IMG/VR virus record: IMGVR_UViG_3300025896_000062
Coordinates: 1 to 39,725 of that record
Reading direction: 5' to 3' (one strand)
Length of the DNA: 39,725 bases
DNA from: a virus
The notes beneath the pieces were generated by a model. That model searched no databases and was not told where the DNA came from. It was given only the letters and a program-made list of their open reading frames with translations. Positions 1-38,692 of this stretch are shown piece by piece. Each line of letters opens with the position of its first letter. Position 1 is the stretch's first letter. The position numbers and the translations under genes are program-made.

Positions 1-956
1 CAAGCAGCAGCAGTTCGATGTCGTCTTCTTCCTCGTCATCGAGGCGTTTCAGATAGGCAGCGAGCGCCAGGGCAATGTTGTCGCTCTCCCCGGCCAAGGT
101 GCTGGGGATGTAAAAGGTGTCCGGCAATGCGGCTTGGACGATCTCCGGCGTGAAGCCCAGAAACCTCGGAAGCAGCGCGTTGACCTCAGCCGCGATTGCA
201 GGGCTGACCGTGCGTTTCTTCAGCCGCTTCGGGAGGCTTGCCGCTTCAATTTTCGTAACCGCGTTGTTACGGTAGACCAGATAGCGCGTTCGACGCCCGC
301 TCCCGCCGCCACCGCGTCGAACGGGCGTAGTGTCAAGCCCAAGGGCCACACTGTCAGTGGGTTCAGATGCCGAAAGGCTAGCAGTATGTTTTGCCGCCAG
401 GGCAATGGTTACGCTATCGCTAGCCTCAGTTAGGGCAAATGAGGCAACGAGAAAATTGCCACTGACAATGACCGCAGTATCAGCGGCTTCGGTTGCACTG
501 AGACTAAGCGTTGTCGCCGCACTGAGGCCAATGCTGGCCGAGTCGGTCGGCTCAGTTGCCGCTAGGCTGGCCGAATAAGCAGTCGATAGCGCCAGTGCCG
601 CCGTGTCGCTGTTTTCGTTCGCAGCCAGGCTGGCAAGATGTGCTGCACTAAGTGCGAAGCTGGCAGCGTCGGCCGCTTCTGTAGCAACAAGAGAGCCTGT
701 AACCGTGGTGAGCGGCGTGTAGATAATAAGCATAGCGCCCTGAGCGCCATTGCCACCGTTGCCCGTAGTGGACGAGCCGCCACCACCACCACCGCCGCCG
801 CCGTAGAGACCAGCAGCGCCACCTGTGCCAGCAGTTGCCGTACCGGAGTTACCGCCACCGCCACCGGCACCGCCGCCGGGGCCAACAGCGATACCCGTTG
901 ACAAGATATAATACTGGCCGGGTCCACCAGCACCGCCAGTTTGACCCGTATTTGCA
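1..956. repeat. left copy of diverged terminal duplication
   Basis: Bases 1-956 align with 38701-39725. The first 120 bases are identical. I count about 19 mismatches in the first 360 aligned bases. The right copy carries an extra 69 bases (one 23-aa repeat unit) near 39066-39170. The frame is kept throughout, so both copies encode the fibre C-terminal part. Confidence 0.9.
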
Positions 957-3235
957 CCGCCAGAGCCGGAGCCGCCGCCGCCAAGGATGCCGGGGTTACC
1001 GGCTGTTGCTGACGCAACTGTTGCAGCCTGCGTAGCAATTGCGTTCAGGCCACCCGCAGCACTGGTTGTCGTGCTGCTATCAATAGCCGCGCCAGCGATA
1101 CCGCCGCCGCCGCCGCCGCCCGAATTAGCATTTCCGCCTTCACTGCCATTAAAACCGTTGGCCGCTGCTGTTGCTGCGGAACCGCCGCCTCGTCCACCCC
1201 CATCAACTGTGACAGCGCCAGATTGTTTTGTATTGCCGCCACTAAACTTGCTGGTCCCGAAACCGCTAGCTGCCGCGCCGCCAACACCGCCGCTGGCAAG
1301 CCCGCCCGTTCCACCTTTGGCAAGAACGCCTGTGGTGGTGGAGGTAGGTGCCGTATTGGACGACGTGTTAGTCGAGGTATCCCAGTTTAGCCATGTGTCG
1401 CCGCCAGCCGTGCCAGCCGTATTAGCCGCTGTCGCGCCTACGCCTTTGGAACCGATGGAGATGTAAACCGTTGAGCCTTTACCGAAAGCAAAGTCGCTGC
1501 TGACTGATGCAGCACCACCGCCACCGCCAAAACCTTGGTTGCCGCCATTGGTTGCACGGCCACCTGCACCGCCCGCGCCAATGGCGATGACGGTGTTGGT
1601 CGAGGACATGTCCGCCGGTGTCGTCCAAGTCGTGCCGCTGTCAAGAAGGACGGTCTTCTGCGTGGGTGTATAAGTGATGACAATCAGGCCAGTGCCGCCA
1701 GCTTGACCCTGCACGTTCGCCGCAGATCGCAACGCGCCGCCGCCGCCGCCACCATAAGCACCGCTGGTCGTGCCGCTAGCGGCTGTTGTCCGAGGACCAC
1801 CGCCTGTACCTGAGCCTTGAATACGACTAATATTGTTGTACACTGCTGCTGAGGTCCAAGTGTTTACGGCAAGGATTTCAGCACCTGCAGTGCCGTTATT
1901 ATTTGCTGCCGGTCCAGCGGTCGTGCCGCCGTTTGCGCTACCACCATTGGTTGATGTTCCAGCGCCACCTACCCCAATAGTACCCGCAGCGCCGCCTCCA
2001 GCCCCGCCGCGCGTAGAAGCAAGGCCAGCAGCACCATCACCACCTGAGTATTTTGTGGTTCCAACACCACTAGCAGCATCTCCACCTATTCCAGCCGTGC
2101 CGTTGGCCGCTGTAGTCGTGCCGCCGCCGCCAGTGCCGCCTTTAGCACCGACCGATGAAGCCGCGAGGTTCGCGCCGTTGAAATAGGTGTCACCGCCCGT
2201 TCCGCCGTTTCCCCCCGTTGCAGCGCCCGTCGAGCCGCCAGCCCCGGTGCCATAAGTGATAGTCGCACCAGCCGTCAGAGACAAATTGGTTATGGTTGAT
2301 GCTGCGCCACCGCCGCCGCCGCCGCCAGTTGCTCCAGATGTAGTTCCAGCCCCGCCGCCGCCACCTCCGCCGCCAATCGTCGTGATGCTATTGTTCGACG
2401 AGTTCCAGTCGGCGGGAACAAGCCACCTCGTGCCAGAAATCAGGAAGACCGTCTTGGACACGGGAGAATAGGTGATAATGATGGTGCCTTGAGCGCCCAC
2501 AGCGCCGTTGTTAGCGCCATAGCCACCGCTGCCGCCGCCACCGTATGCTCCGCCTACTTTGCCAACTCCTGCTGCTGTAGTTGCACCAGCACCAGACCCA
2601 GAACCTGCTGTTCCGCTAGTATTGCCGTATGTACCGCTATATGTATTAGTGTAGATTAAATTCGCCCCGGCGGTTCCCGCAGTATTTACCGCTCCGCCAG
2701 CGAGAGCACCGTTATTGGCCGTTCCGCCGGTAGTTGACGTACCGTTCCCGCCTGCACCAAGAGGCCCCGCCGCGCCGCCAGCGGAACCGCCGTATGTAGC
2801 TGTGACGCCCGCAATGCCATCGCCGCCTGAATACTTGAGCGTACCGATGCCACTTGCCGAAGCGCCGCCTGTGCCGCCCGTGCTGGTGCCGCCGCCCGTG
2901 CCGAGCCCACCGCCCTTGGCTCCTACGGATGACGCAGCTAGAGAAGCGCCATTGAAATAGGTGTCGCCACCCGTTCCACCGTTGCCACCTGTTGCCACAC
3001 CAGCCGAGCCAGCAGCGCCAATGGCATAAGTAATTGCAGCGCCGGGGGTAAGCGTAAGGTTAGTTACGGCAGAATAAGCGCCGCCGCCGCCACCTGCGCC
3101 GCAGAACGTAGGACCGCCATTGCCGCCAGCGCCGCCGCCACCGCCCGCGCCGATCACCTCAATCTTGTTATCGGCAGCATTCCAGTCCGCCGGAACCGTC
3201 CAGGACGTTCCAGCGGTTAGGATAATGACGGGCAT
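1..3235 (-). CDS. giant glycine-rich tail fibre / adhesin (copy A, C-terminus cut by window start)
   Basis: Open frame of about 1078 codons from the ATG at 3235 to the window edge. By alignment with the right-end copy, only the last two codons and stop are missing. It holds three Gly-rich modules (about 3235-2500, 2480-1690 and 1670-730), each opening with an SGT-W-x-x-PAD motif and closing with G-A-Q-G-x-x-I-I-x-Y-like strands. Modules 1 and 2 share GDTYFNGA and SSVGAKGG blocks. Then come about six 21-23 aa Ala/Ser/Thr repeats (x-L-x-A-T-E-x-x-D) and a charged C-terminal domain ending in acidic residues and poly-Leu. Gly-rich modules of this kind occur in phage fibres and adhesins; receptor binding is inferred. 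It follows a 58-aa gene in the late operon. Confidence 0.85.
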   Translation of the reverse strand, partial: MPVIILTAGTSWTVPADWNAADNKIEVIGAGGGGGAGGNGGPTFCGAGGGGGAYSAVTNLTLTPGAAITYAIGAAGSAGVATGGNGGTGGDTYFNGASLAASSVGAKGGGLGTGGGTSTGGTGGASASGIGTLKYSGGDGIAGVTATYGGSAGGAAGPLGAGGNGTSTTGGTANNGALAGGAVNTAGTAGANLIYTNTYSGTYGNTSGTAGSGSGAGATTAAGVGKVGGAYGGGGSGGYGANNGAVGAQGTIIITYSPVSKTVFLISGTRWLVPADWNSSNNSITTIGGGGGGGGAGTTSGATGGGGGGGAASTITNLSLTAGATITYGTGAGGSTGAATGGNGGTGGDTYFNGANLAASSVGAKGGTGGGGTTTAANGTAGIGGDAASGVGTTKYSGGDGAAGLASTRGGAGGGAAGTIGVGGAGTSTNGGSANGGTTAGPAANNNGTAGAEILAVNTWTSAAVYNNISRIQGSGTGGGPRTTAASGTTSGAYGGGGGGALRSAANVQGQAGGTGLIVITYTPTQKTVLLDSGTTWTTPADMSSTNTVIAIGAGGAGGRATNGGNQGFGGGGGAASVSSDFAFGKGSTVYISIGSKGVGATAANTAGTAGGDTWLNWDTSTNTSSNTAPTSTTTGVLAKGGTGGLASGGVGGAAASGFGTSKFSGGNTKQSGAVTVDGGGRGGGSAATAAANGFNGSEGGNANSGGGGGGGIAGAAIDSSTTTSAAGGLNAIATQAATVASATAGNPGILGGGGSGSGGANTGQTGGAGGPGQYYILSTGIAVGPGGGAGGGGGNSGTATAGTGGAAGLYGGGGGGGGGSSTTGNGGNGAQGAMLIIYTPLTTVTGSLVATEAADAASFALSAAHLASLAANENSDTAALALSTAYSASLAATEPTDSASIGLSAATTLSLSATEAADTAVIVSGNFLVASFALTEASDSVTIALAAKHTASLSASEPTDSVALGLDTTPVRRGGGGSGRRTRYLVYRNNAVTKIEAASLPKRLKKRTVSPAIAAEVNALLPRFLGFTPEIVQAALPDTFYIPSTLAGESDNIALALAAYLKRLDDEEEDDIELLLL
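340..720 (-). repeat. Ala/Thr-Glu-Asp protein repeats in fibre A (about six units)
   Basis: Degenerate 63-69 bp units encode 21-23 aa repeats with the core x-L-x-A-T-E-x-x-D-x-x-x-x-x-L-S-A. They sit between the last Gly-rich module and the C-terminal domain. Copy A lacks one unit that is present in the right-end copy. They probably form a beta-rich or trimeric stalk; that is inference. Confidence 0.75.
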
Positions 3236-3439: not shown

Positions 3440-3850
3440 TTAGCCGTGAGTGATGGTGCCGGAGGTCACCTGAACCGTTTGGCCCGAGGTGATGGCTGTG
3501 GAGGAAATCGTGATGTCAGTGCCCGATGTGCCGACCGTCAGGCCGGAAACAATCACCGTGCCCGCGTTGTTTCGCAGTTCTGCCAACGCTGCTGTCCCCG
3601 TCGCCGCGGCCGTGGCGCTCAGAGGGACACCGGAAATGGTCAATACCGATCCCGAAACGGTGGCCGGGGTGATCGAAAGCGGAATAGTCGCCAGCACGCC
3701 GGTTGCGCCAGACAGCGACGAGGTGCCGATGACCAGATTGCCAGCCGCCGTGCCCGTTACTGAAATAGTCGGGGCCGTCGCCGTGCCCAGGGCATTGACG
3801 ACAAGGTTAAGCCGGTTCGTCTTGAGCGACGAGGAATAAGTCACAGCCAT
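3440..3850 (-). CDS. putative small virion protein, beta-rich, 136 aa
   Basis: A 136-aa protein made almost entirely of short Thr/Ser/Val/Gly beta-strand-like segments, with repeated S-G-x-x-L-x-I-S-G-x patterns. There are no charged catalytic clusters and no membrane segment. It begins 12 bases after the portal stop and precedes the 58-aa gene and the fibre, in a run of late genes. Composition resembles Ig-like or decoration proteins. The family is not recognised; a virion surface or head-tail joining role is inference. Confidence 0.7.
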   Translation of the reverse strand: MAVTYSSSLKTNRLNLVVNALGTATAPTISVTGTAAGNLVIGTSSLSGATGVLATIPLSITPATVSGSVLTISGVPLSATAAATGTAALAELRNNAGTVIVSGLTVGTSGTDITISSTAITSGQTVQVTSGTITHG

Positions 3851-3862
3851 GTGGGGTGATCC

Positions 3863-6151
3863 TTAGTTCAACAGTTTCCGGGTGCCGACAGCCTTGCCGG
3901 TGGCCGGGTCGCGGACAATTTCAGTGGGGGCGCTAAGGTGCTGCGCCAAAGCCTGCTGGCCCTGCTGCACTTGCCCCATGGCCTGCATAACCGCCTGAGT
4001 GGACGCCATCAGGCTTTCGGCAATCAGGTCGAGCTTGTCTTTCGGCTGTGTGGTGCCATCGGCAACAGCCATGTCTTTCATGCCGAGTTTCAGCAGTTCG
4101 ATCTCGCGCTGCTGCGCCAACTCAGTCTGGCGCATCGCCATTTCGTTCTGGAATTTGTACATTTCAAAGCGCTGCTGCTGCTCTGCGGTCGCCATGTCGG
4201 CCTGCATCTGCGCGGCTTCCTTGGAGGTCGCAGCCTCGGCCTTCTGCTGCTCCAACTGCATTTGGGCTTGCAGCTTCTGCTGCTCAACGCTGGGCTGTTG
4301 TGAGGCTTGTGCCGCAGCCTGTTTCAGGCCCTGCACATCGTCCTCGCCAAAGTCCGGGTAGTAAAAGTCGGGGCTTTTGAGGCCCGCTGACTCGGCGATC
4401 TTCTTCATGGTCTCAACGACCTTGGGCAATAGGTCGATGGCCTGCTCGGTTGCGCCCGAGCTTTGGAAGCGGTCGGCCAAAGCGATCTGGTTCTGCAACA
4501 CGCCCTGAAGCATCATCATATCGCGCTCACGCGAGCCGGTGCCCAAGCCGACATTGATGGTGCAGTCCATATTGGCGTTCCACACGCGGGGATCCATTTC
4601 CACGAACTCATCCCGCAAGCGGATGATACGCGGGCGGTCCTGATGCTTGACGATCAGGCGCAGGATTGACTGAAACACGCGTTTCCAGCCCAGTTCGGCC
4701 ATGTTGCGGGCAATCAGTTCGATCTGCGAATAGGACGCGTCGCGCTGGTTCTGCGAGGCGGTGGCGGTCTGGTTCTGCAAGGCCTCGGGGTCAAGCGCCA
4801 TTGACTGCCGCGATACGCCTGTGCGCCTAGCCACAACCTCATCCATGAACTGGATGGCGCTAAACGCCTTATCGGCAACGAAGGGCACAATATGCGGCTG
4901 AATCGGCGCGGTGCCCGGCTTCTTCCAGATCAACCCACCAAACTTTGGCGCAACGAGAATGTCCGGGTTCTGCACCGACCCAGCCTCAACCTCACGCATT
5001 GGCATATTGGAGGCGTAGAGGTTGTCGAGCGCCTGGCGCAGCAACTGCGTCTTAATGCGCTGGATGTCCTTGGTGCGGTCGGCGACGCTATCGGCGTCCC
5101 AGCGGTGCGGGATCGGGTAGCAAGGAATGTCCGTGTACGGAACATCGTCTTCCCACTGCGTCCACTTGAGGATTTTGCCCCCACCAGCGTTCCCGGCGTA
5201 CCAGACCTGCACCTGCTCAGCGATGCCGTCATTGTCGATGTCAGCTTTGACGTAGCATTCGTAGAGGTCGATGAAATCCTGCGACTTCAGCGTATTGGTG
5301 CGGAGGTTGAGGAAATTGTCGGTGCGGGCAATGCCCTCGGCATTATCAAGGCGCTGGCTGTGCGCGGCCAGATCGGCCACCACATCCTTGTCAAAGCCCA
5401 TTTCGATGAGGTCGGATCGGGTCTTGGTATCGTGCAGATAGGCAATGAACCGGGCGTCTTCAGTAGAGGTCGCGTCGGCGTCAATGTAGAAGTTCTCGGG
5501 CTTCACGGCACGGACATCGAGGCGACCGCGAGCGCTTTCACGCTTCACCTTCACATCAAACGTCGGCACCGGCATGTCCACCATCTGCCCATCAGGGCCG
5601 GGGGCGGAAATCATGTCGGGCTCGTCATTCTGGCTGTGGGCGATAATCTCCACGCCATCTTCGTCCATCAGCAGCGCCAGTTGCGGCGGCGTTAGGCGAG
5701 AATGAAACGACACCTCAACCTTGGGGCTGTCGTCCCAGCGGTGATAGATGATGCCATTGCCATTGAGCAGCGCGTCGTGGGTGGCATTGTACAGCGTGCG
5801 GTAGCCGTCATTGTCCGACATGAACACATAGTTCACGTAGTCGGTGGCCTGCTTGGCGAACTCAACATCGTTCTCGCGCATCGGCTCATAGAGCGCCATG
5901 TGGTCGGACGCGGTGAACACCCGGACGATGCCGGGGAGCATCCAGGCAATCGTATCGCTGACATCCATTGACACGACCGACGAGCGGTTAGCCGGGGGCG
6001 GCAGGTCGCGCATGTCGCCGCGCAGATATTCCATGTTCTCAACGCGCTTGGCGACGAGTTCCGACTTGGCAAACTGATGCGCGGAAGCCAGTTCAGCCGC
6101 GATGAGCGACGAGAGGTCATTGCCCTCAATGTCGGGGATGTCTTCGGCCAT
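3863..6151 (-). CDS. portal protein, 762 aa
   Basis: Twelve-subunit portal through which DNA enters and leaves the capsid. At 762 aa it fits the large P22/SU10-type portals. It has an N-terminal helical region, a central stem/wing region with P-Y-x-D-I-P-C-Y-P-I-P-H-R, the Q-N-Q-T-A-T-A-S-Q-N-Q segment typical of this class, and a long Gln/Ala-rich coiled C-terminus (roughly residues 610-720) suggesting a barrel. I chose the ATG at 6151, which overlaps the terL stop as TAATG. It sits directly downstream of terL, as expected in a packaging module. Confidence 0.93.
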   Translation of the reverse strand: MAEDIPDIEGNDLSSLIAAELASAHQFAKSELVAKRVENMEYLRGDMRDLPPPANRSSVVSMDVSDTIAWMLPGIVRVFTASDHMALYEPMRENDVEFAKQATDYVNYVFMSDNDGYRTLYNATHDALLNGNGIIYHRWDDSPKVEVSFHSRLTPPQLALLMDEDGVEIIAHSQNDEPDMISAPGPDGQMVDMPVPTFDVKVKRESARGRLDVRAVKPENFYIDADATSTEDARFIAYLHDTKTRSDLIEMGFDKDVVADLAAHSQRLDNAEGIARTDNFLNLRTNTLKSQDFIDLYECYVKADIDNDGIAEQVQVWYAGNAGGGKILKWTQWEDDVPYTDIPCYPIPHRWDADSVADRTKDIQRIKTQLLRQALDNLYASNMPMREVEAGSVQNPDILVAPKFGGLIWKKPGTAPIQPHIVPFVADKAFSAIQFMDEVVARRTGVSRQSMALDPEALQNQTATASQNQRDASYSQIELIARNMAELGWKRVFQSILRLIVKHQDRPRIIRLRDEFVEMDPRVWNANMDCTINVGLGTGSRERDMMMLQGVLQNQIALADRFQSSGATEQAIDLLPKVVETMKKIAESAGLKSPDFYYPDFGEDDVQGLKQAAAQASQQPSVEQQKLQAQMQLEQQKAEAATSKEAAQMQADMATAEQQQRFEMYKFQNEMAMRQTELAQQREIELLKLGMKDMAVADGTTQPKDKLDLIAESLMASTQAVMQAMGQVQQGQQALAQHLSAPTEIVRDPATGKAVGTRKLLN

Positions 6152-7410
6152 TAAACCACCCAATCGGTCTGCACTTGCGGCAGGTCTTTCAGCTTCGGGG
6201 CGTCGTCTGCGCCCATCACGCCGTAGCGGAAGGCGTCAGCCCCATGCGAGGCGCTATCGTGCAACGGGCGGGGCCGCAGCACTTCGTTCTTGGTGTCATA
6301 CTCGGCCCGATACATGCGAAGCCGGTCGAGCCCGAGGGCGCACTTGTCAGCGTCAAACCAGAAGCGGTTGAAGCGAACACGCGCCGCGTCGATGCCGTCC
6401 ATCACTTCATGGCGGGGAACGATGCGGACGTTCAGCCCGCGCTCCTCAAGGAACTGCTTGCGGCTTTTGCCGGTCTGCAATTCCCGCGCCTCAGCGTCGT
6501 GCGGCAACAGATGCTCGTGAATGGTGTAGCCTCGGGCCTTCACCCAATCGACGTAGTGGTCAAGCGCCTGGCTGCTGGCTTCGTAATAGTCGAGCCAATG
6601 CCATTCACGGCCGATAATCTGGCCGACCCAGATGGCGGTCGAGTCAGCAATGCCCAAGTCCCAGGAGGCGAACACATCGGCGCTGCGCTCAAGCGGCACC
6701 TTGGTGATCCGCCCGTCATTGCTCGCCGCTTCCATTTCGCGGCCATAATAGGCACCGGCTACAGCCGCCTGGAACGAACATTCATATTCCTGGAGGAAGG
6801 CCTCCGGCGTCATCTGTTGCTTTGCGTCTGCCAGTTCCTTCGGGTCAATGATCCCGGTTTCTGACGACTTCAGCGTGGCAGCGAACCAATCCTCGTTACC
6901 CCGCGCTTCCTGCACGATGTCATAGAAGCGGTTACGGCCCTTTGGAGTGCCAATGAATGAAGCCCAACCCTTGCGGTCGCTGAGCGCCGGTCGGATCACT
7001 TCCACCCAGGCACGGGGATCAATGTCACCGCTTTCATCAATCACCACGCCGTCGAGGTACAACCCGCGCAAGCGCTCATAGTTTTCCGCGCCATAAAGCC
7101 GGATGCGAGCGTCATTGTGCGGCAGCGTTACCGACAACTCCGATTCCGAGGTCTTAATGCCCGGAATGGAGGCCGTGTATTCCTTGAGGTAGCTCCACGC
7201 TACGTCCTTGGCCTGAGCATAGGTCGGCGCGACATAAGCGAAGCGCGGCGCACGGCCCTGATGGGACACGGCTTTAGCAACAAGGTCCATGACGCAGGCT
7301 ACGGTCTTGCCTGCCCGTCGATGCGCCACCACTGCGGCCCATCTTTCCTTGCGCGTGAGGTACGGCACAAAGGCAGGGCGCGGAATGAACTCAATTTCGA
7401 TTGAGCGCAT
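6151..7410 (-). CDS. terL: terminase large subunit, 419 aa
   Basis: ATP-driven DNA packaging motor and headful or cos nuclease. Visible motifs: Walker A H-R-R-A-G-K-T (residues 30-36), Walker B V-V-I-D-E-S near residue 125, coupling motif I-G-T-P-K-G, and an RNase H-like nuclease starting S-W-D-L-G-I-A-D-S. The ATG at 7410 was chosen; upstream GTG and TTG codons are in frame. It overlaps terS by 20 bases and couples to the portal by TAATG. Cutting specificity cannot be read from sequence. Confidence 0.95.
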   Translation of the reverse strand: MRSIEIEFIPRPAFVPYLTRKERWAAVVAHRRAGKTVACVMDLVAKAVSHQGRAPRFAYVAPTYAQAKDVAWSYLKEYTASIPGIKTSESELSVTLPHNDARIRLYGAENYERLRGLYLDGVVIDESGDIDPRAWVEVIRPALSDRKGWASFIGTPKGRNRFYDIVQEARGNEDWFAATLKSSETGIIDPKELADAKQQMTPEAFLQEYECSFQAAVAGAYYGREMEAASNDGRITKVPLERSADVFASWDLGIADSTAIWVGQIIGREWHWLDYYEASSQALDHYVDWVKARGYTIHEHLLPHDAEARELQTGKSRKQFLEERGLNVRIVPRHEVMDGIDAARVRFNRFWFDADKCALGLDRLRMYRAEYDTKNEVLRPRPLHDSASHGADAFRYGVMGADDAPKLKDLPQVQTDWVV

Positions 7411-7645
7411 CGCCACCAAACGACACTTTGACGCTGATCGGCCCGCCGTCTTCGCCGGTCACTTCAACCGCGGCCAGATCGGGCAGGACTTTCTTCATCA
7501 GCGCAATAGCAGCAGACACTTGCGTGCTGCTCATTTCACGCACACCTTCAACATGCTCAATTAAAGCATTGAGAATGTTGCTATTTTGAATTTTAACCCG
7601 ATGTTCGGGCGACATTGTGAAGCCTGGGCTTCTTCCACGAGTCAT
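7391..7645 (-). CDS. terS: terminase small subunit, probable, 84 aa
   Basis: Small basic N-terminus (M-T-R-G-R-S-P-G-F) followed by a helical region containing E-M-S-S-T-Q-V-S-A-A-I-A-L-M-K-K-V-L-P-D-L, a pattern seen in short terS proteins of proteobacterial phages. It would recognise the packaging site and regulate TerL. It overlaps the terL start by 20 bases. The ATG at 7645 is preferred to a TTG at 7699, which would run into the operator dyads. It is the first gene of the late operon. The family call rests on position and style. Confidence 0.82.
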   Translation of the reverse strand: MTRGRSPGFTMSPEHRVKIQNSNILNALIEHVEGVREMSSTQVSAAIALMKKVLPDLAAVEVTGEDGGPISVKVSFGGDALNRN

Positions 7646-8856: not shown

Positions 8857-9438
8857 TCAAGCGGCGTGCTTGTGAATAAGTCCATAGTGCTTGGCTAGGG
8901 CGTTCAGCGCCAACCGCAGATCACCCACCAGGTGCCAGAGCGCTACGTCCCGGCACACGCAAAGATCGAGCGCCGCAAGCAGCGTCGCATCGTTGCGAAG
9001 TGCGTTCTGCGCCACCTGCACGGCATTCAGTGTTGCCTCATAGCGGGCCACTGCCTGCTGAGTGCGGCTGATGTTCTCGCCGCTCGCCCTGCCCTGCACT
9101 CGGTTGAGGTCTACAGCGTCCATTTCGGCCGGGGCACTGATTGCCCGCCGATAGGCGTCACGCTCAGCGAGGTAGGTCTTCGCCGCATCAAGCTGGGCCG
9201 GGGAGATCGCCTTTTTATCGCAGAGCCGCCCAACGAATGACCCGGCATTCTGTCCTTTGGCACGGTCGAGCGGGACACCGTGGACGCGGACGCGGGCCAT
9301 GACCGCAACGTGCATCGCGTCCCAACTTTCGGCGTTGATCGCCGCAGACTCGCGGGCTTGGCGTTCGGCTGGATCACGGCTCAGGCGTCCGTTGAGTTCA
9401 CGCTTGCCGGGAGAAGGTTTCTTGCCACGCTTGCCCAT
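8857..9438 (-). CDS. hypothetical early protein, 193 aa
   Basis: A 193-aa protein with a basic N-terminus (G-K-R-G-K-K-P-S-P-G-K-R), then a mostly helical body with K-K-A-I-S-P-A-Q-L-D-A-A and a C-terminal A-L-N-A-L-A-K-H-Y-G-L helix. Its start overlaps the methyltransferase stop (TAATG at 9438). It is the last gene before the operon terminator, the place where lambdoid phages often encode antiterminators or late regulators. I cannot recognise such a domain, so function is unknown. Confidence 0.75.
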   Translation of the reverse strand: MGKRGKKPSPGKRELNGRLSRDPAERQARESAAINAESWDAMHVAVMARVRVHGVPLDRAKGQNAGSFVGRLCDKKAISPAQLDAAKTYLAERDAYRRAISAPAEMDAVDLNRVQGRASGENISRTQQAVARYEATLNAVQVAQNALRNDATLLAALDLCVCRDVALWHLVGDLRLALNALAKHYGLIHKHAA

Positions 9439-10610
9439 TATGCTGCCTCCTCATTAACTGACGCGGCCAACTTCTTGTCCACCATGTCAATGCGTTCACC
9501 GATCCAGCGCATGACGTTGACCGCCATACTGTTGCCGAGCGCCTTGTATCGAGGTCCATCAGCGGCAGGCTTATTGCGGTGCGAAACCAGCGTGAAATTG
9601 TCCGGAAATCCCTGCAAGCGCTCACATTCCGTGGGCATAAGGCGGCGGACGGCCATGCCAACCGAAACAGCCATCGGGTTTTTCGCCTGCAAGGTCTGGT
9701 TCTCTCCGGCATCGACCTGCGGCACGCTCATCTTTGCGCCGAAGCTGATGGGCTGCTGCACATAGTCGCCACCCTGGTTGCCGGTCGTTGGGCCAGTAGC
9801 CATCAGCGGCTGCGCTACATCAACCGCTCGGGCCTTGTAATCCTTGCCGCTGTTCTGCGGCATGATGGAGTAGACAACCGGAGCTTCATGCAGGCAAGTC
9901 AGGCTTGGCGCACCACCATCAGTGCGGATTTCAGCATTCGCTTGGCCGCTAGACATGACGATAGTTTGGTCTACTTCACCACTGCTACCAGTGCCTGATG
10001 CAACGCCTCCGGCAACTCTTTGCCCCGCTTCTCGGCGCGGCGGAGGATCCCCGCGCAAGCTTTGGCCGTCAAATAGTACCGCTGCGGCAGGTCGCCAGTC
10101 TCCAAAATATCCGACAACGAACACACGCCGCCGCCGTTGAGGAACGGCATGTTCAAAGCCGCGTGTTCGGACGAACTGAGCGTCCAGCACTCGGTAGGCG
10201 AACCCATACCCGAGTTCTGCCAGCCCCCGGAGGAAGGTGCCAAAGTCCCGTCCTCGGTTGGATGACAATACGCCGGGGACATTCTCCCAAACCAGCCATT
10301 GGGGGCGACGGCGTGCAGCAATGGCAAGATAGGTAAGCATGAGATTACCACGGGGGTCAGCCAATCCGGCTCTAAGGCCCGCGATTGAAAAGGATTGGCA
10401 GGGTGTTCCGCCGACAAGAAGGTCAATTGCATGGTCAGGCCACTCGCTAAATTTTGTCATGTCGCCGTGGTTCGGCACATCAGGGTAGTGGTGAGCCAAG
10501 ACCGAACAAGGAAACGGCTCAATCTCGGAAAAAAACACTGGCTCCCATCCAAAAGGGTGCCAGGCCATCGTTGCGGCCTCTATGCCGCTGCACACTGATC
10601 CGTAGCGCAT
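9438..10610 (-). CDS. dcm: DNA (cytosine-5) methyltransferase, orphan, 390 aa
   Basis: Methylates C5 of cytosine using S-adenosylmethionine. It shows motif I V-C-S-G-I-E-A-A near residue 6, motif IV G-G-T-P-C-Q-S-F with catalytic Cys71, motif VI W-E-N-V, motif VIII P-Q-R-R-R-R-V-F, and motif X G-N-S-M-A-V near the C-terminus. The variable target-recognition region lies about 185-320. No cognate restriction gene is nearby, so it is an orphan, probably guarding phage DNA from host restriction or acting on regulation. It is coupled by TAATG to the upstream replication-type gene. Confidence 0.95.
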   Translation of the reverse strand: MRYGSVCSGIEAATMAWHPFGWEPVFFSEIEPFPCSVLAHHYPDVPNHGDMTKFSEWPDHAIDLLVGGTPCQSFSIAGLRAGLADPRGNLMLTYLAIAARRRPQWLVWENVPGVLSSNRGRDFGTFLRGLAELGYGFAYRVLDAQFVRTRGFEHAVPQRRRRVFVVGYFGDWRPAAAVLFDGQSLRGDPPPRREAGQRVAGGVASGTGSSGEVDQTIVMSSGQANAEIRTDGGAPSLTCLHEAPVVYSIMPQNSGKDYKARAVDVAQPLMATGPTTGNQGGDYVQQPISFGAKMSVPQVDAGENQTLQAKNPMAVSVGMAVRRLMPTECERLQGFPDNFTLVSHRNKPAADGPRYKALGNSMAVNVMRWIGERIDMVDKKLAASVNEEAA

Positions 10611-11149
10611 TATGCCGCCTCCCCTTCCGAGTCATTGCCGACCCGGTAATTGCCGCCCATTAAGCGGTTCATCAGCGAGGCCGGGTCTTGCGGCGGGTTG
10701 AAGCGTACCTGCACTTTTGACCAATGCTCGGCTCGGCTGGCTTCAGTGGGCCGCTCGGTGTCAAGCGCGGCCATCTCGGCATCGAACCGCTTCAGGCGCT
10801 CGGCCACACGCTGGCGCTCTTCAGGGGTTGCCGCTGGCACATCAGGTTTTGGCAACGAGGGCATGGTGTAGCGCTTGGTGCGGCTTTCGCTTTCAAGCCG
10901 CTGATTGCGGGCCTTGACCACCACACCACCAAGCAGCGGGGCGCTGGGCGAATACTGGCCGTTGTGCCAATCAATCTCACCCCGGATCAGCCGCCAGATT
11001 GCAACCTCAATGTCGCGCATGTCGTGCCCGTCAAGCGCCACGGCGTAGGCTTTCATCTGCGTTGCCCGGTCAACTCCGGGGGCGGAAGGGTACGTCGAGA
11101 ACAACAATTCCAGAAGGCTGGGGATGGTGTGCTGAGACATCTGCGGCAT
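10610..11149 (-). CDS. probable replication accessory protein / helicase-loader-like, 179 aa
   Basis: A 179-aa protein with an N-terminal helical domain (L-L-F-S-T-Y-P-S then D-I-E-V-A-I-W-R-L-I-R-G-E) followed by a Y-S-P-S-A-P-L-L segment and a charged tail. Many alphaproteobacterial phages carry a protein with this 'ladle' pattern immediately after the O-like replication gene, in the position of lambda P. It overlaps the 3' end of the upstream gene by 80 bases. A helicase-loading role is inferred from position and not shown by motifs. Confidence 0.6.
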   Translation of the reverse strand: MPQMSQHTIPSLLELLFSTYPSAPGVDRATQMKAYAVALDGHDMRDIEVAIWRLIRGEIDWHNGQYSPSAPLLGGVVVKARNQRLESESRTKRYTMPSLPKPDVPAATPEERQRVAERLKRFDAEMAALDTERPTEASRAEHWSKVQVRFNPPQDPASLMNRLMGGNYRVGNDSEGEAA

Positions 11150-11717
11150 CCATGTTACGGGCTAGTTGCCCAAAGGCTGCGGAAAGGGTGGGTTGGGATT
11201 GCATGGGGGAACCGCGAATGCCGGTACGGTCGGCAGCTTCCCGACACCAGTTGCGCCAGGCGGCTCGCCAATCGATCTTCGCGCCCTTGGCCGAGTTCAC
11301 CGACCAATCCCGCATTTTCGCGGCTTCGAGATCGATACGCTGGGGAGGAAGGCCAGCCGTCAGCGCGTCGGCTCGCCACTCGTCGGGCAAGGTCCAGTCG
11401 CTGGGGAGGCGGGAGGCTTTCTTTTGACCCCCTTTAGGGGGGTTTTCTTTGAGGGTGGTGGGGGTGGAAGAAAGGGAAGAAAGGGGTGTGGGGGAAGAAG
11501 GGGAAGAAGGAGGGTCCGTTTCCACAATGTCCGCGGATTCCGCAGAATTCCGCAGACGCGCTTTCCGCTCCCGATCCTTTTCCCGGCGACGCGCAGCCTG
11601 CTCATCACGGGGCTCGCCGCCTGTAACCTTGACGCAAGCCAAGGCAACAAGGATGGCCTCAGGCGACATGCCCGAAACCTTCATCGCGTCAATGGTTGCG
11701 GCAAGGTCCAGCATCAT
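11070..11717 (-). CDS. phage replication initiation protein (O/DnaT-like), 215 aa
   Basis: Short N-terminal helical domain (I-D-A-M-K-V-S-G-M-S-P-E-A-I), a very basic R-R-R-E-K-D-R-E-R-K-A-R stretch, a Ser/Pro-rich linker, and a C-terminal domain with L-P-S-D-W-T-L-P-D-E-W and D-W-R-A-A-W-R-N-W-C-R-E. That last motif is typical of the DnaT/lambda-O-type C-terminal DNA-binding domain in phage replication proteins. It probably binds the origin and recruits the host helicase. The linker DNA is a striking G/A-rich tract (11451-11514) and may be part of the origin. It overlaps the DnaA-like gene by four bases (ATGA). Confidence 0.75.
   Translation of the reverse strand: MMLDLAATIDAMKVSGMSPEAILVALACVKVTGGEPRDEQAARRREKDRERKARLRNSAESADIVETDPPSSPSSPTPLSSLSSTPTTLKENPPKGGQKKASRLPSDWTLPDEWRADALTAGLPPQRIDLEAAKMRDWSVNSAKGAKIDWRAAWRNWCREAADRTGIRGSPMQSQPTLSAAFGQLARNMDAADVSAHHPQPSGIVVLDVPFRPRS
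11451..11560. other. G/A-rich tract plus tandem 10-mers, candidate replication origin
   Basis: The plus strand at 11451-11514 is almost pure purine with seven runs of three to five G. It is followed by GTTTCCACA (11518-11526, 7/9 to a DnaA box) and two perfect tandem copies of ATTCCGCAGA (11537-11556). All of it lies inside the O-like gene, as lambda's origin does. Confidence 0.35.
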
Positions 11718-12385
11718 GCCACCTCGGCCGGGAGGCCCAGAACCCGCTGCTCGTGCATACGGACGCCATGCAAAACGGTGGTGTGGTCACGGCCACCGAT
11801 CAGCCGACCAATATCTGGCAGCGACATCGCCACCTCTTTCTTCAGCCGGTAGAACACCTCATGGCGACAGGCCACGATACGCGGCTGGCGCTGCTTGCTG
11901 TGCAGTTCCGTCCACGTAATGCGGTGCTTCAGGCACACTTCCTCGGCAATCTGCTTCCACAGCGGCTTTGCATAGTTGATCTCGGAATAGGGCCAGACCT
12001 TGGTCCAATCGACGGTGTTGTGCTGCACGGGCTTTGCCACCCAGGGCTGCACCACCGTTCCCATGTGCATGGGATAAACGTGAAACGGCGTCTGCTCCGG
12101 CTCTGGTTTTACCTCCAACACTGGCGTCTGCTTCGGCGCAGTGGGCCGACCGCGCCCTTTAGCCTTGGCAGGACCAGCGGCCTCTGACACTTCGGCAGTC
12201 ACTGCCTGCGGCTTGCGCTCGGCAATGCCAGCCATTTTGCGGAGCAGGCGGGCTTCCTTATTGGTCGCGTAAATGTCGCCAAGGCTTTTGAGTTGGGCCA
12301 TCGCGCCCTGCTTCTGCCGCTCAATGATCTTGGCGCGGGCGGGGGCGTCGGTTTTCTGTGCCCAAAACGGGTGGGGCGTTATCAT
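11714..12385 (-). CDS. DnaA domain-IV-like DNA-binding protein, 223 aa
   Basis: The C-terminal third carries the DnaA DNA-box-binding domain: C-R-H-E-V-F-Y-R-L then S-L-P-D-I-G-R-L-I-G-G-R-D-H-T-T-V-L-H-G, matching the DnaA signature S-x-x-x-I-G-x-x-x-G-x-R-D-H-[ST]-T-V. There is no AAA+ ATPase domain; the N-terminal half is helical and basic with a Pro-rich linker. It therefore cannot load helicase like full DnaA, and may mark the phage origin or compete with host DnaA. The start at 12385 overlaps the nuclease stop as ATGA. It lies just upstream of the O-like gene. Confidence 0.88.
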   Translation of the reverse strand: MITPHPFWAQKTDAPARAKIIERQKQGAMAQLKSLGDIYATNKEARLLRKMAGIAERKPQAVTAEVSEAAGPAKAKGRGRPTAPKQTPVLEVKPEPEQTPFHVYPMHMGTVVQPWVAKPVQHNTVDWTKVWPYSEINYAKPLWKQIAEEVCLKHRITWTELHSKQRQPRIVACRHEVFYRLKKEVAMSLPDIGRLIGGRDHTTVLHGVRMHEQRVLGLPAEVA

Positions 12386-12684
12386 TTCGCAAGCTCCATA
12401 AAGCGGTGCATCGGCAGCACGACCAGCCATTGCGAGCGGTCGCGGCGGATAAACAGGGCATCATGCGCGCCCAACCATTCGTAGATTTGGCTGAAGCCCG
12501 TGGCCCGGACCTTGACCTCGGCAACCCAATCGCTGCCCTTTACCGGCAACGACACATCGCCAACGAACTTGCCCCCGGCTGCGCCGGACAACGGTACTTT
12601 TTCGGCCCCGATGCCTGCCTCTTGCAGGGCATCAACCACCTGGCGCTCGTTGCGGAGGCCCTTGTCACGACTAGGCTTGCCCAT
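12382..12684 (-). CDS. Holliday-junction-resolvase-like PD-(D/E)xK nuclease, 100 aa
   Basis: A 100-aa protein with R-N-E-R-Q-V-V-D-A-L at the N-terminus, G-K-F-V-G-D-V near residue 41 and V-A-E-V-K-V-R near residue 55. The conserved Glu, Asp and E-V-K set form the PD-(D/E)xK core of archaeal-Hjc-like phage nucleases. It probably cleaves branched DNA made during replication or recombination before packaging. It is flanked by overlaps with both neighbours. Confidence 0.78.
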   Translation of the reverse strand: MGKPSRDKGLRNERQVVDALQEAGIGAEKVPLSGAAGGKFVGDVSLPVKGSDWVAEVKVRATGFSQIYEWLGAHDALFIRRDRSQWLVVLPMHRFMELAK

Positions 12685-13694: not shown

Positions 13695-13698
13695 ATGA
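13666..13698 (+). CDS. 10-codon leader ORF coupled to the repressor
   Basis: ATG at 13666 is preceded by AGGAGGG (13658-13664), the best ribosome site in the immunity region. The 10-aa product (M-Q-L-D-T-G-V-T-R-L) ends at TGA 13696-13698, overlapping the repressor ATG at 13695 as ATGA. The repressor itself has no ribosome site, so its translation probably depends on ribosomes ending this leader. Confidence 0.6.
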   Translation: MQLDTGVTRL

Positions 13699-14402
13699 GC
13701 GAAAAACTGAAAGCCGCCCGTGAAAAAGCGGGGATGACCCAGGAACAGGCTGCGGTACGTTTGGGTATGTCGCGCAGCAACTACATCAAGTTAGAGCGTG
13801 GCGAGCGGCAGTTCCGCGAGAAATATGTTGTGCTTGCCGCGCAAGCGTTCGGGGTCGATCCTGCCGACCTGATCGACAACTCAACGCCGCTCAATCAATT
13901 GCTGGAGACAGCCAGGCCCCATATCGGCAAAACGCTGCCTTTTGCGGGCTATGTTGCTGCGGGCCTATGGCACCCTGTGGACGACCTCGATCAAGACGGT
14001 GGCCGTCAGGTGCCTGACTTTGTGTTAAGCCACCCGGCTTATCCCAAGGCCCGCCAGTATGCCTACATGGTGCGCGGCGACAGTATGAACCTCGCCGGAA
14101 TCGATGATGGCATGTGGGTGGTTGCTGCCGATGCTGCCGACTTCGTGGACTTGTATGGGGAAACCGAAAGTGGCGATCTGGTGGTGGTCGAGCGCAGCCG
14201 CCTTCAGGGCTCAGAACGCGAATTGACCGTTAAGGAAATCCGCTTTTACCGCGACCGCTATGAGCTGTTGCCACGATCCAGCAATCCAGTTCACCAGCCT
14301 ATCGTTGTGCAGCACAACCACGGCGTAGACCCCGACAAAGAGGAAGTACGGGTCATTGGCGTGGTACTGACCTCTTATCGGGATCATCGGCGGCGAAAAT
14401 AG
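13695..14402 (+). CDS. CI-like repressor, HTH plus S24 peptidase, 235 aa
   Basis: Maintains lysogeny and is cleaved on SOS induction. N-terminal XRE HTH (M-T-Q-E-Q-A-A-V-R-L-G-M-S-R-S-N-Y-I-K-L-E-R-G) at residues 14-36. A LexA-like C-terminal domain has the Ala89-Gly90 cleavage bond in V-A-A-G, nucleophile Ser130 in G-D-S-M, and general base Lys180 in T-V-K-E. It is divergent from the Cro-like gene and followed by a strong terminator. Likely binding sites are the flanking dyads at 13.65 kb and 14.56-14.61 kb. Confidence 0.95.
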   Translation: MSEKLKAAREKAGMTQEQAAVRLGMSRSNYIKLERGERQFREKYVVLAAQAFGVDPADLIDNSTPLNQLLETARPHIGKTLPFAGYVAAGLWHPVDDLDQDGGRQVPDFVLSHPAYPKARQYAYMVRGDSMNLAGIDDGMWVVAADAADFVDLYGETESGDLVVVERSRLQGSERELTVKEIRFYRDRYELLPRSSNPVHQPIVVQHNHGVDPDKEEVRVIGVVLTSYRDHRRRK

Positions 14403-15073: not shown

Positions 15074-15576
15074 GCCAGTTCCTGACCCTTGATGCAGCCG
15101 CCCTTGCCCGCGAGTTCGATGCGCTGTTCGCAGCGTATCCCGAAATGGCCGATGACGAGGAACTGCGCCGCGACATGCTCGATGGCGAAACCAGCATCAC
15201 CCGCGTGTTGTTGCACGCTTATGATGTGCTGACTTCCGCCAAGATCGTGCAGGCGGGCATTGATACCGTGCTTGTGGACCTCAAGGCCCGCAAGGACCGC
15301 TTTGCCCGCCGCGAGGACGCCATGCGCTCTCTGATGCTTGGCATCTTGGAAGCGGCGCACCTGCCCAAGCTGGAACTGCCGGTCGCCACGCTCAGCGTCC
15401 GCGACGGCACGACCAGCGTGGCAATCACCGACCTTGAGGCTCTGCCCCAAGGCTACTTCAAAACCATCCGTCAGGCCGACAAGACGGCCATCAAAGCCAG
15501 CTTAGAGCAGGGCGAAGCTATCCCCGGCGCGGAACTCGTGACCGGCGAACGCAGCCTTACAGTGAGGAACAAATGA
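15070..15576 (+). CDS. Siphovirus Gp157-family protein, 168 aa
   Basis: The body matches Gp157-type proteins: an N-terminal helix, a long charged coiled region (G-I-D-T-V-L-V-D-L-K-A-R-K-D-R-F-A-R-R) and a C-terminal L-P-x-x-Y-F-K-T-I-R-Q-A-D-K-T-A-I-K segment with K-A-S-L-E-Q-G-E-A-I-P-G-A. The GTG at 15070 overlapping the previous stop is the likely start. In many phages this gene is adjacent to an annealing recombinase, as here. The role is unclear; in Streptococcus it was linked to phage resistance when expressed by the host. Confidence 0.88.
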   Translation: MSQFLTLDAAALAREFDALFAAYPEMADDEELRRDMLDGETSITRVLLHAYDVLTSAKIVQAGIDTVLVDLKARKDRFARREDAMRSLMLGILEAAHLPKLELPVATLSVRDGTTSVAITDLEALPQGYFKTIRQADKTAIKASLEQGEAIPGAELVTGERSLTVRNK

Positions 15577-16247
15577 TCGAACATTCAGAACAAATCACCG
15601 AACTGACCAAAGCCTTGGTCATCGCTCAGACCCACCTCGGCGGTGTGGTCAAGGACGCCAAGAATCCGCACTTCAAGTCGCAGTACGCGACCCTGGGCGC
15701 GGTGATGCTTGAGGCGCGGCCGGCGCTCAACACGGCGGGCATCGCGCTCAGCCAAGCACCGGGTCGGCTGCGCGATGGGTTGATCGAAATCACCACCACG
15801 CTGCTGCACGGCGAGAGCGGGCAGTGGATGTCCTCAACGCTGGAAGTGCCGGTCTCGAAACGTGACCCGCAGGGCGTTGGCTCAGCCATCACCTACGGGC
15901 TGCGCTATTCGCTGCAAGCCATGTTGGGCATCCCCAGCATTGACGACGATGGCGAAGCCGCCATGGACCGCGATGCTGCCCCCACTGCGGCAATTGCACC
16001 GCCCAAGCCCGCAAGCAAGGCAGATGCCCGCGTCACTTATGACCGGCTGTCAAAGGCCAACCGTGAGATCAAGACCAGCGACGAGTTCAACAAGTTCTGG
16101 ACCAACGCCAAGGTGATCCAGGCATTCAAGACCCTGCCCGAGGATTGGCAGGAAAACCTGTACGCCGAGCGCGACGACAAGTCGGCGGATCTGGATGAAA
16201 TCGAAGACCTGCGGGCCGCTGCGCCCAAACTTGAAGAGGTGATCTGA
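15573..16247 (+). CDS. erf: ERF-family single-strand annealing recombinase, 224 aa
   Basis: Anneals complementary single strands during phage recombination or genome circularisation. The conserved ERF region includes K-N-P-H-F-K-S-Q-Y-A-T-L near residue 28 and G-S-A-I-T-Y-G-L-R-Y-S-L-Q-A-M-L-G-I near residue 102, followed by an acidic D-D-D-G-E-A tail, a Pro/Ala linker and a charged C-terminal domain. Coupled by ATGA to Gp157 and TGATG to the SSB-like gene, giving a compact recombination cassette. Confidence 0.94.
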   Translation: MIEHSEQITELTKALVIAQTHLGGVVKDAKNPHFKSQYATLGAVMLEARPALNTAGIALSQAPGRLRDGLIEITTTLLHGESGQWMSSTLEVPVSKRDPQGVGSAITYGLRYSLQAMLGIPSIDDDGEAAMDRDAAPTAAIAPPKPASKADARVTYDRLSKANREIKTSDEFNKFWTNAKVIQAFKTLPEDWQENLYAERDDKSADLDEIEDLRAAAPKLEEVI

Positions 16248-16505: not shown

Positions 16506-16706
16506 ATGGGTTACTTCGAGGACTGCAAAGCTGCATTCCTGCGGGCCAGGTCGGAAGATGATTTGAACACCGCATCGCTTATGCTGGAGGACGTTGGCTT
16601 CAACGCCCTCCCCGCCAAGCAACAGGCTGAATTGACGCAACTGGAAGACCAGTTGTGGTCGCAGTTTGAAGACGAGGAGGTCAGCCAATGGGCCGCGCCA
16701 GTGTGA
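16506..16706 (+). CDS. hypothetical acidic protein, 66 aa
   Basis: A 66-aa acidic helical protein (Y-F-E-D-C-K-A-A-F-L-R-A-R-S-E-D-D-L-N) starting at 16506 with GAGGAGG upstream. It overlaps the NinB start by 19 bases. The repeated short helices are consistent with a small helical bundle. No recognised domain. Confidence 0.7.
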   Translation: MGYFEDCKAAFLRARSEDDLNTASLMLEDVGFNALPAKQQAELTQLEDQLWSQFEDEEVSQWAAPV

Positions 16707-17077
16707 GGATCAGGTCGGAAGCCGACCGCAAGTTGATCTTGGATTGGGCCTATCGCGCCCCAAAGGGCACGACCGTGACCTTTAAGGCCGATGCCCGGTC
16801 GCCAGAGCAAAATGATCTGATGTGGGCGCGGCTCACCGACATCAGCCGAGCAGTCGCCTGGTATGGCCGCAAATTGAAGCCCGAGGATTGGAAAACGATT
16901 TTCACGGCCTCGCTGCGAAAGTCGGATGTCATCCCCGGCATTGATCCGGGGACCGTGGTCCCGCTTGGACTCTCAACCTCAGACATGACGGTCAGCGAAA
17001 TGACCGCCCTGCTTGACCTGATCGATGCCTTTGCCGCTGAGCGCGGTGTCACGTTCAAAGAGGAGTTGGCCGCATGA
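16688..17077 (+). CDS. ninB: NinB-family recombination protein, 129 aa
   Basis: Matches NinB (lambda Orf) in layout: I-L-D-W-A-Y-R-A-P-K-G-T near residue 18, R-S-P-E-Q-N-D-L-M-W-A-R-L-T-D-I-S near 37, W-K-x-I-F, and V-P-L-G-L-S-T-S-D-M-T-V-S-E-M-T near 90. In lambda it binds ssDNA and can replace RecFOR to load recombinase. It fits with ERF and the SSB-like protein upstream. Confidence 0.92.
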   Translation: MGRASVRIRSEADRKLILDWAYRAPKGTTVTFKADARSPEQNDLMWARLTDISRAVAWYGRKLKPEDWKTIFTASLRKSDVIPGIDPGTVVPLGLSTSDMTVSEMTALLDLIDAFAAERGVTFKEELAA

Positions 17078-18965: not shown

Positions 18966-19273
18966 TGGCCCCCGCCACCATGCCTGTCGGCTCCGGCTAC
19001 GGCTACGGCTACGGCTACGGCGACGGCTACGGCTACGGCGACGGCTACGGCGACGGCTACGGCAACGGCTACGGCAGCGGCAACGGCTACGGCTACGGCA
19101 GCGGCAACGGCTACGGCGACGGCTACGGCTACGGCTACGGCAGCGGCAACGGCGACGGCTACGGCTACGGCTACGGCTACGGCAGCGGCAACGGCTACGG
19201 CGACGGTACTGGTTATGGTACTGCTTCACCGCATCGCATGCGCCGCATAGCACTGGAGGCCAAGGATGAGTAG
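18965..19273 (+). CDS. (Gly-Tyr)n low-complexity repeat protein, 102 aa
   Basis: A 102-aa protein with a 10-residue start (M-A-P-A-T-M-P-V-G-S), 38 consecutive Gly-X dipeptides where X is Tyr, Asp, Asn, Ser or Thr, and a short basic tail (H-R-M-R-R-I-A-L-E-A-K-D-E). The start at 18965 couples to the upstream gene as TAATG and the stop overlaps the excisionase gene. Similar Gly/Tyr/Asp repeats appear in other alphaproteobacterial phages next to DUF6948-type genes, without known function. Composition suggests a disordered, sticky, tyrosine-rich chain. Confidence 0.82.
   Translation: MAPATMPVGSGYGYGYGYGDGYGYGDGYGDGYGNGYGSGNGYGYGSGNGYGDGYGYGYGSGNGDGYGYGYGYGSGNGYGDGTGYGTASPHRMRRIALEAKDE
18995..19222 (+). 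repeat. hexanucleotide tandem array GGC-TAC/GAC/AAC/AGC, 38 units
   Basis: Thirty-eight in-frame 6-bp units, mostly GGCTAC with interspersed GGCGAC, GGCAAC and GGCAGC. Higher-order blocks such as GGCAGC-GGCAAC recur several times, showing expansion by duplication. Unit length 6 means copy-number change preserves the frame. Confidence 0.95.
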
Positions 19274-19499
19274 CCCAGCGAGGAGAATGCTGACTCGTGA
19301 GGAAGCTGCCGACTACTGCGGCTTCAAATCGCCAGCCGGGTTTGAAGCACATATCGCAGTTCGGCCAATCCGGTTCGGGCAAAGCGTGCGCTATGATGTC
19401 CGTGACTTGGACGAATATCTGGACCATTTGCGCGAGGCTGGCCCGCGTAAGTCCTTTGCGGAGTTGGCAGGCAATGAAAATAAAGGTCGTCGGGCTTAA
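19266..19499 (+). CDS. xis: excisionase / AlpA-type HTH protein, 77 aa
   Basis: A 77-aa winged-helix protein: M-L-T-R-E-E-A-A-D-Y-C-G-F-K-S near the start and V-R-Y-D-V-R-D-L-D-E-Y-L near residue 50, which is the MerR/AlpA-like excisionase pattern. It overlaps the integrase start by 26 bases. It should direct excision by bending attL/attR. Start couples to the Gly-Tyr gene (ATGAGTAG). Confidence 0.85.
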   Translation: MSSPARRMLTREEAADYCGFKSPAGFEAHIAVRPIRFGQSVRYDVRDLDEYLDHLREAGPRKSFAELAGNENKGRRA

Positions 19500-20538
19500 G
19501 GAGTTCACAGACCGGCATGGCACCAAGCGTCGATACTGGAAGCGCACCGGCACCAGATATGTCGCTATTGATCCGCTGCTGAAGGGCGCTGCCCTCGCCG
19601 CCGAGATTGCCCGCCTGGAAGAAAAGCACCTGCACAAGCTGACCCCAAAAACGGGCACGCTGCGGGCGCTAATAACCGATTACAAAACCCGATCCGAACA
19701 TTGGTCACGCCTCGCGCCACGAACCCGCAAAGATTACGAGCGGGTGTTCTCGTGGCTTGGCGAAGCGGTCGATTCCCCCATCACGCTGCTGACGCCGCAC
19801 GACATTGTGCTGGTGCGGGACAAGGCCAAGGCCCGCTATGAGGCAAAGTTCGCTAACCAAGTGGTCATCACCCTGAAGGCCGTCATGCAACATGGCGTGG
19901 ATTATGGTGAGATCAACACCAACCCTGCGGCCGTGGTCAGCAAGCTGCATGTGCCGATCAAGCGCGGCAACCGCGCCTGCACACCAGAGGAAGCCGCAGC
20001 GCTGCTTGACCATGCCCCAACGCAGTTGCTGCCAGTCATTGCCGTGGCGCTATACTGCGGCGTCCGCGAGGGCGATATTTGCCGCTTGCCGCGCAATGCC
20101 ATCAAGGGTGATTGGCTGGAGTTCACACAAAGCAAGACCAAGCGCTTGCAGGCCAACTTCGTGGTCCCGATGCTGCGGCACACCCTGTCAACACAGTCCC
20201 CACACAATGCCACCACCCTGCTGGCATCCGGGCGCGGGACGCCGTGGACCGAGGAAGGCGTGAAAAGCGCATGGGAGCGGTTGCGGAATGATTTGGAGGA
20301 GCGCGGGCTTTTAGCGCCAGGCGCTACCTTCCATGGGCTGCGTCATACTGGGGCGAGCCTGTTGGCCGATCTTGGCTTTGAGGAAAGCGAGGTCGGGGCC
20401 TTCCTCGGCCATGGCCCAAAAACGGTGTCAGGCCACTATATGAAATCGGCAAAACGGCGGGCGCTGCTCGAAAAAATGGCTCGCGCTTTGGCCGATGCAA
20501 TTGAGTCGGGGCGCACGAAGCGCGAACAAATTAGTTAA
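19474..20538 (+). CDS. int: tyrosine-type integrase, 354 aa
   Basis: Site-specific recombinase for attP x attB. An N-terminal arm-binding part, a SAM-like core-binding domain (D-Y-K-T-R-S-E-H-W), then a catalytic domain with Arg in C-G-V-R-E-G-D-I, H-G-L-R-H-T-G-A, and the C-terminal G-H-G-P-K-T-V-S-G-H-Y with the nucleophilic Tyr. The ATG at 19474 starts M-K-I-K-V-V-G-L-K; the longer open frame upstream is the excisionase gene in another frame. Its last codons overlap the first of three repeats near attP. Confidence 0.95.
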   Translation: MKIKVVGLKEFTDRHGTKRRYWKRTGTRYVAIDPLLKGAALAAEIARLEEKHLHKLTPKTGTLRALITDYKTRSEHWSRLAPRTRKDYERVFSWLGEAVDSPITLLTPHDIVLVRDKAKARYEAKFANQVVITLKAVMQHGVDYGEINTNPAAVVSKLHVPIKRGNRACTPEEAAALLDHAPTQLLPVIAVALYCGVREGDICRLPRNAIKGDWLEFTQSKTKRLQANFVVPMLRHTLSTQSPHNATTLLASGRGTPWTEEGVKSAWERLRNDLEERGLLAPGATFHGLRHTGASLLADLGFEESEVGAFLGHGPKTVSGHYMKSAKRRALLEKMARALADAIESGRTKREQIS

Positions 20539-38161: not shown

Positions 38162-38404
38162 TCAGAGGTCGCTGCCGCCATCGAACTTGCCAGCGGCAAG
38201 CAGGACGGCGCGAAGCGCATCTCGAACATCGGTAAGGCATCCGGCCATCGCCTGGAGCCTCAGAATTGCGGTGGTGTCGCTCGCCTCGGTGACCGCCAAT
38301 TGCTCAAGGGCATTCTGGCGCACTTCGTCGAAGGCAGCGGTTAATTCATCATGGCGCAGCAGGTCATCAACGCGCTGCGCCCGGTAGGAAAGCGGCTCGG
38401 TCAT
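38162..38404 (-). CDS. hypothetical helical protein, 80 aa
   Basis: An 80-aa all-helical protein (Y-R-A-Q-R-V-D-D-L-L-R-H-D-E-L-T-A-A-F-D-E-V and A-L-E-Q-L-A-V-T-E-A) starting by ATGA overlap at 38404. It resembles small helical proteins found between portal and scaffold genes in this phage group. Function unknown. Confidence 0.7.
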   Translation of the reverse strand: MTEPLSYRAQRVDDLLRHDELTAAFDEVRQNALEQLAVTEASDTTAILRLQAMAGCLTDVRDALRAVLLAAGKFDGGSDL

Positions 38405-38682
38405 TCCCACCCGACCGTAACGCCAACATTGGCGAGGGTGGCATCAAAGCCGACATAAATGCCGGTGCGGCACAGCACTTCCAGTTCAATGGTATGGCCC
38501 GGAGTGGTCGCAAACACCCACTCTTTATAGAGCACGGTGCCGCTTTCGGCAGTGTTGTCATAGATGGTCAAAAGCCCAGCCGTTGGCGTAGCCGTCAGGG
38601 GGGCAATCGACACGTAACAGACTTTTGCAATGCCGGTTCGAACCAGCGTATCGGCGGTACAGTGAGTAAAATTGGATGCCAT
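38401..38682 (-). CDS. small beta-rich hypothetical protein, 93 aa
   Basis: A 93-aa protein beginning M-A-S-N-F-T-H-C with beta strands such as A-K-V-C-Y-V-S-I-A-P-L-T-A and E-L-E-V-L-C-R-T-G-I-Y-V-G. GAGGA lies 8 bases before the start at 38682. It follows the fibre gene by only 10 bases and overlaps the 80-aa gene. Possibly a virion surface component; unproven. Confidence 0.7.
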   Translation of the reverse strand: MASNFTHCTADTLVRTGIAKVCYVSIAPLTATPTAGLLTIYDNTAESGTVLYKEWVFATTPGHTIELEVLCRTGIYVGFDATLANVGVTVGWE

Positions 38683-38692
38683 GGTGTCCTCG

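Follow-up and report, generated by a model that had tools for sequence, protein, structure and literature searches.

The window, that is, the whole stretch of DNA that was analysed, comprises 39,725 nucleotides of a phage sequence (IMG/VR virus record IMGVR_UViG_3300025896_000062). Genes of the late operon were found near both of its ends, together with a putative tail fibre gene at its very start. They are listed below in the direction of the operon.

Late genes and the putative fibre gene

6151-7419, minus strand: terminase of the late operon
3863-6163, minus strand: SU10-type portal protein, upstream of the fibre gene in the operon
3440-3850, minus strand: virion structural protein (PHROG 3758), its gene lying between those of portal and fibre
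2-3235, minus strand: putative glycine-rich tail fibre gene, 3' end incomplete, the open reading frame (ORF) running off the window start
38401-38739, minus strand: small ORF, next downstream of the fibre gene, with a homologue in the related contig L022
38162-38410, minus strand: small gene between the preceding ORF and the scaffold gene
37043-38071, minus strand: head scaffolding protein (PHROG 3927), on the downstream side of the join of the two ends
36020-37030, minus strand: major head protein (PHROG 1328), after the scaffold gene

The putative fibre ORF (2-3235) encodes glycine-rich domains, followed by 21-residue repeats and a C-terminal module that is first basic and then acidic. Its glycine-rich domain matched PF21722 (Gly_rich_2) with an E value of 2.7e-12, above the curated cut-off, and a weak match (E = 1.5e-5) was obtained with PHROG 863, labelled tail fiber assembly. 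Proteins of other phage contigs share 59-67% identity with the N-terminal 640-780 residues. In one of these, L004, the homologue stops after the glycine-rich part and lacks both the repeats and the C-terminal module while its N-terminal part matches, which suggests that the gene is modular. 'Fibre' is a reasonable but unproven name for the gene, and its product would act in host attachment. The structure predicted for the C-terminal part was unusable (pLDDT 40).

Elsewhere in the window, the following genes of the temperate-phage type were found, which in this phage occur together with the SU10-type portal.

13695-14402: repressor-like protein, HTH_3 plus Peptidase_S24
15573-16247: ERF
16688-17077: NinB
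19297-20538: tyrosine integrase

Just before the integrase gene, a plus-strand ORF contains about 36 copies of the hexamer CGGCTA (18988-19206), possibly representing a variable dipeptide repeat. The product of a phage gene at 11714-12430 carries the C-terminal DNA-binding domain of DnaA (PF08299), and this part has homologues in several relatives.

Two versions of the fibre C-terminus at the window ends

The first-pass annotation of the sequence had described the two window ends as aligning with many substitutions and a 69-bp in-frame indel, and our alignment confirmed this. Positions 1-956 and 38701-39725 align end to end and in the same orientation, with 883 of the 956 bases identical, 73 mismatches and 69 gap columns, the 69-base gap being in-frame and lying on the head side (1-956). 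The two ends are thus collinear, and one single stretch of similarity reaches both contig ends. Using blastn, the overlap was recovered as two blocks with 19 mismatches in the first 366 bases, in agreement with the roughly 19 substitutions noted earlier for the first 360, and 45 mismatches between 393 and 956; chance is excluded by the E values of these blocks (about 0 and 1e-163). The two copies share strand (minus) and reading frame and encode the C-terminal part of one protein, of which no further copy was found anywhere in the window. The features of the overlap are the following.

1-956, minus strand: version A of the fibre C-terminal part, six 21-residue units; the contig start removes the final 8 bases of the gene, including the stop codon
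38693-39724, minus strand: version B of the fibre C-terminal part, seven units; 3' end complete, 5' side cut by the contig end
39067-39161, minus strand: region with the 69-base (23-residue) unit absent from A, between ungapped alignment blocks; exact breakpoints ambiguous
1-127: perfectly shared segment, equal to 38701-38827; branch vertex expected at k=127
38701-38827: second occurrence of the shared 127-base vertex, from the end alignment and the local graph
39609-39725: perfectly shared right end of 117 bases, equal to 840-956; 10 bases short of a k=127 merge vertex

The divergence of the two versions amounts to approximately 8% overall and to approximately 10% in the core between the two perfect flanks, which consist of the first 127 bases (the first mismatch being base 128) and the last 117 bases. 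If the 73 mismatches were placed at random, both flanks would be mismatch-free with a probability of about 2e-10.

Among the 318 codons shared by A and B, 66 differ, resulting in 25 amino-acid changes, and the very C-terminus is identical in both. The mismatches fall at the third, first and second codon positions in 47, 20 and 6 cases, respectively. Three methods gave a dN of about 0.04 and a dS of 0.17-0.22, corresponding to a dN/dS of about 0.2. As the changes are mostly synonymous, the differences between A and B represent real divergence under purifying selection.

The repeats in this part of the protein show a periodicity of 21 residues, with a self-identity of 36% at lag 21 and 41% at lag 42, versus about 8-14% at neighbouring lags. 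The 69-base gap corresponds to one 23-residue unit of this array, which comprises six units in A and seven in B. The extra unit of B is 49-55% identical to every other unit, the same range as for any pair of units, and its recent origin by duplication was therefore rejected. Because it is no closer to the others than any pair, loss of an old unit in A appears at least as likely as a fresh gain in B.

Gene order across the join and the assembly graph

More than 20 related contigs have an order in which the scaffold gene lies no more than about 3 kb beyond the portal gene and the capsid gene comes next. The genes that flank the join are thus neighbours in the relatives, from which it follows that the two window ends adjoin. 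A portal match was found in 9 of the 11 records searched, one apiece. Over the join region the best match was L022, with 75% identity for the terminase and 56% for the scaffold. Its portal-scaffold interval is occupied by small ORFs, and the final one terminates in LDEDDIELLLLAA, as the window fibre does in LDDEEEDDIELLLLAA. L022 has a single gene with the C-terminus DEDDIELLLLAA, followed directly by the homologue of the ORF at 38401-38739. The identity of these two small ORFs (63%) begins only at residue 23, so that the true start of the window ORF is probably near 38682. The gene order in L022 and the other relatives indicates that the join closes a unit of approximately 38,700 bases with one fibre gene. 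It also bears out the earlier proposal that the late operon runs on across the join.

Searches for close strains, using the C-terminus and the 31-base end pattern against viral contigs and the fibre against bacterial genomes, gave no match, nor was a second contig from the same sample found in these searches. A scan with the scaffold protein returned no loci.

In a metaSPAdes recipe of the JGI style, the setting is -k 33,55,77,99,127, with 127 as the largest k (PMC11256825). We built a local graph at k=127 from the two versions and their common flanks, and it contained a single branch vertex, which is exactly the window head (1-127). The left flank is therefore exactly as long as the k-mer, whereas the right flank of 117 bases is 10 short, the window tail (39725) stopping 10 bases before the merge vertex, which is not the end of a textbook bubble. 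The missing 10 bases might be due to a further branch, i.e. a third haplotype, or to end trimming. Nine further virus records served as a control and were examined for overlapping ends. Those of a related record of 44,138 bases (G003) overlap by exactly 127 bases, and in others the overlaps were 120, 239 or 91 bases, or none, indicating that k=127 was not used for all. For the record of the window, assembly at k=127 is presumed. One of the records, G008 (L118/L119, 47202 bases), has 126 identical bases at its ends, starting at base 3 of the record, and such a near-exact end overlap may likewise go unnoticed. The portal frame of this record contains one TAG.

Taken together, the window very probably represents one genome unit with a single putative fibre gene that was present in the sample as two alleles, one of which lies at each contig end. 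On this reading, the record would be a metagenome contig assembled from short reads, and the phage, of temperate type and with a portal of the SU10 type, would have a closed or terminally redundant genome unit of about 38,700 bases. The sample would have contained at least two alleles of the fibre C-terminal part, presumably carried by different phage molecules, and the de Bruijn graph would have retained them as a bubble that was not resolved. From the 127-base branch vertex, the contig path would then lead through allele A and round the genome back to the same vertex, to end in allele B. Synonymous changes, together with the gain or loss of one 23-residue repeat unit, would make up the main part of the divergence between the alleles. 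Elsewhere the contig is a consensus, so that polymorphism outside the fibre ends is hidden and the fibre stands as a mere candidate for the hotspot of variation proposed in the first-pass annotation. The suggestion of that annotation that two coexisting alleles broke the assembly is backed by three observations, namely the synteny, the branch vertex of exactly 127 bases and the purifying pattern of divergence. Its statement that the ends form no simple circular overlap is literally true, yet the overlap is still of the circular type, with a different allele at each end.

Alternative readings and comparison with known systems

The same annotation had alternatively proposed two tandem fibre paralogues in one genome; in that case the repeat would have interrupted the assembly and the contig would lack the N-terminal part of one copy, the second. 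With a tandem repeat, too, the graph would be interrupted at a shared vertex of 127 bases, and L004, a distant relative, does encode glycine-rich proteins close to each other (ORFs 6614-7570 and 9281-11803). However, this arrangement requires more than 2 kb of sequence absent from the contig, as well as identical flanks despite about 20% synonymous divergence in between. Furthermore, L022, the best-matching relative, has one such C-terminus in the interval, and in other relatives the whole portal-scaffold interval measures at most about 3 kb. With no relative having two copies and no extra sequence being needed, we regard tandem paralogues as improbable. An equally low probability is given to six- and seven-unit fibres being functional length variants, whether as tandem genes or as alleles under balancing selection. 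Within the allelic explanation, two phages might have diverged genome-wide, in which case the contig would be a chimera with its head from one and its tail from the other. The synonymous divergence is as large as that between phage strains or species, but the sharp return to perfect identity at both flanks suits a local difference somewhat better, with the caveat that assembler vertices would fall at such places in either case. We consider such a chimera possible, if rather doubtful.

Nothing was seen that would speak for sequencing or assembly error, and it can hardly account for the differences between A and B, as the 73 substitutions are concentrated at third codon positions with the low dN/dS given above, and the gap is in-frame and spans exactly one repeat unit. 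It also has to be considered that the fibre might be varied in a programmed way, through recombination with a spare cassette or the action of a diversity-generating retroelement, tail fibre genes being among the usual targets of such systems (PMC5299996). However, the remainder of the window contains neither a second copy nor a template of the C-terminus, and a motif scan, as distinct from a profile search of every frame, revealed no convincing motif of a reverse transcriptase. In addition, the changes are mostly synonymous and not adenine-directed, A being involved in 34 of 77 changes. The set of features that defines a retroelement target, namely a reverse transcriptase, a template repeat and adenine-directed nonsynonymous change, was thus not found, and this candidate was rejected; we give programmed variation virtually no credence. 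Terminal repeats are held identical by replication, for which reason a biological terminal repeat with diverged copies was rejected as well.

Two alleles of a single putative fibre gene thus remain the preferred explanation, and the allelic end overlap is what assemblies of mixed phage strains are familiar for, rather than an unusual genome structure. The record is an IMG/VR virus record classed 'linear', i.e. without identical end repeats, and in all likelihood it comprises the whole genome unit, with allelic variation masking the overlap of its ends. Genomes of this kind escape tests for identical ends, and a mismatch-tolerant overlap test combined with perfect flanks of k-mer length would recover them. 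Such a test also yields a ready-made allele pair of the variable gene, although a variable putative fibre gene is in itself expected biology.

With regard to known phages, Rhizobium phage RHph_N3_2 (MN988526) resembles the window phage in its order of portal, scaffold and major capsid genes and in having an integrase, with 50% identity for the portal and 63% for the capsid, and differs from it in lacking the fibre insert between portal and scaffold. Variation within phage populations is known to fragment short-read viral assemblies (VirION2, PMC8018248), and the break described here is of the same kind. In contrast to those breaks, the alleles here lie on the two ends of one contig, where they mark its closure and can be read directly as a pair. 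Tail fibre genes are among the variable genes of phages, as seen from their microdiversity in Mediterranean viromes (PMC6832022). The window shares with these the variation in a putative host-recognition gene, and differs in that the changes are mostly synonymous and accompanied by a repeat-unit difference, instead of being clustered nonsynonymous changes.
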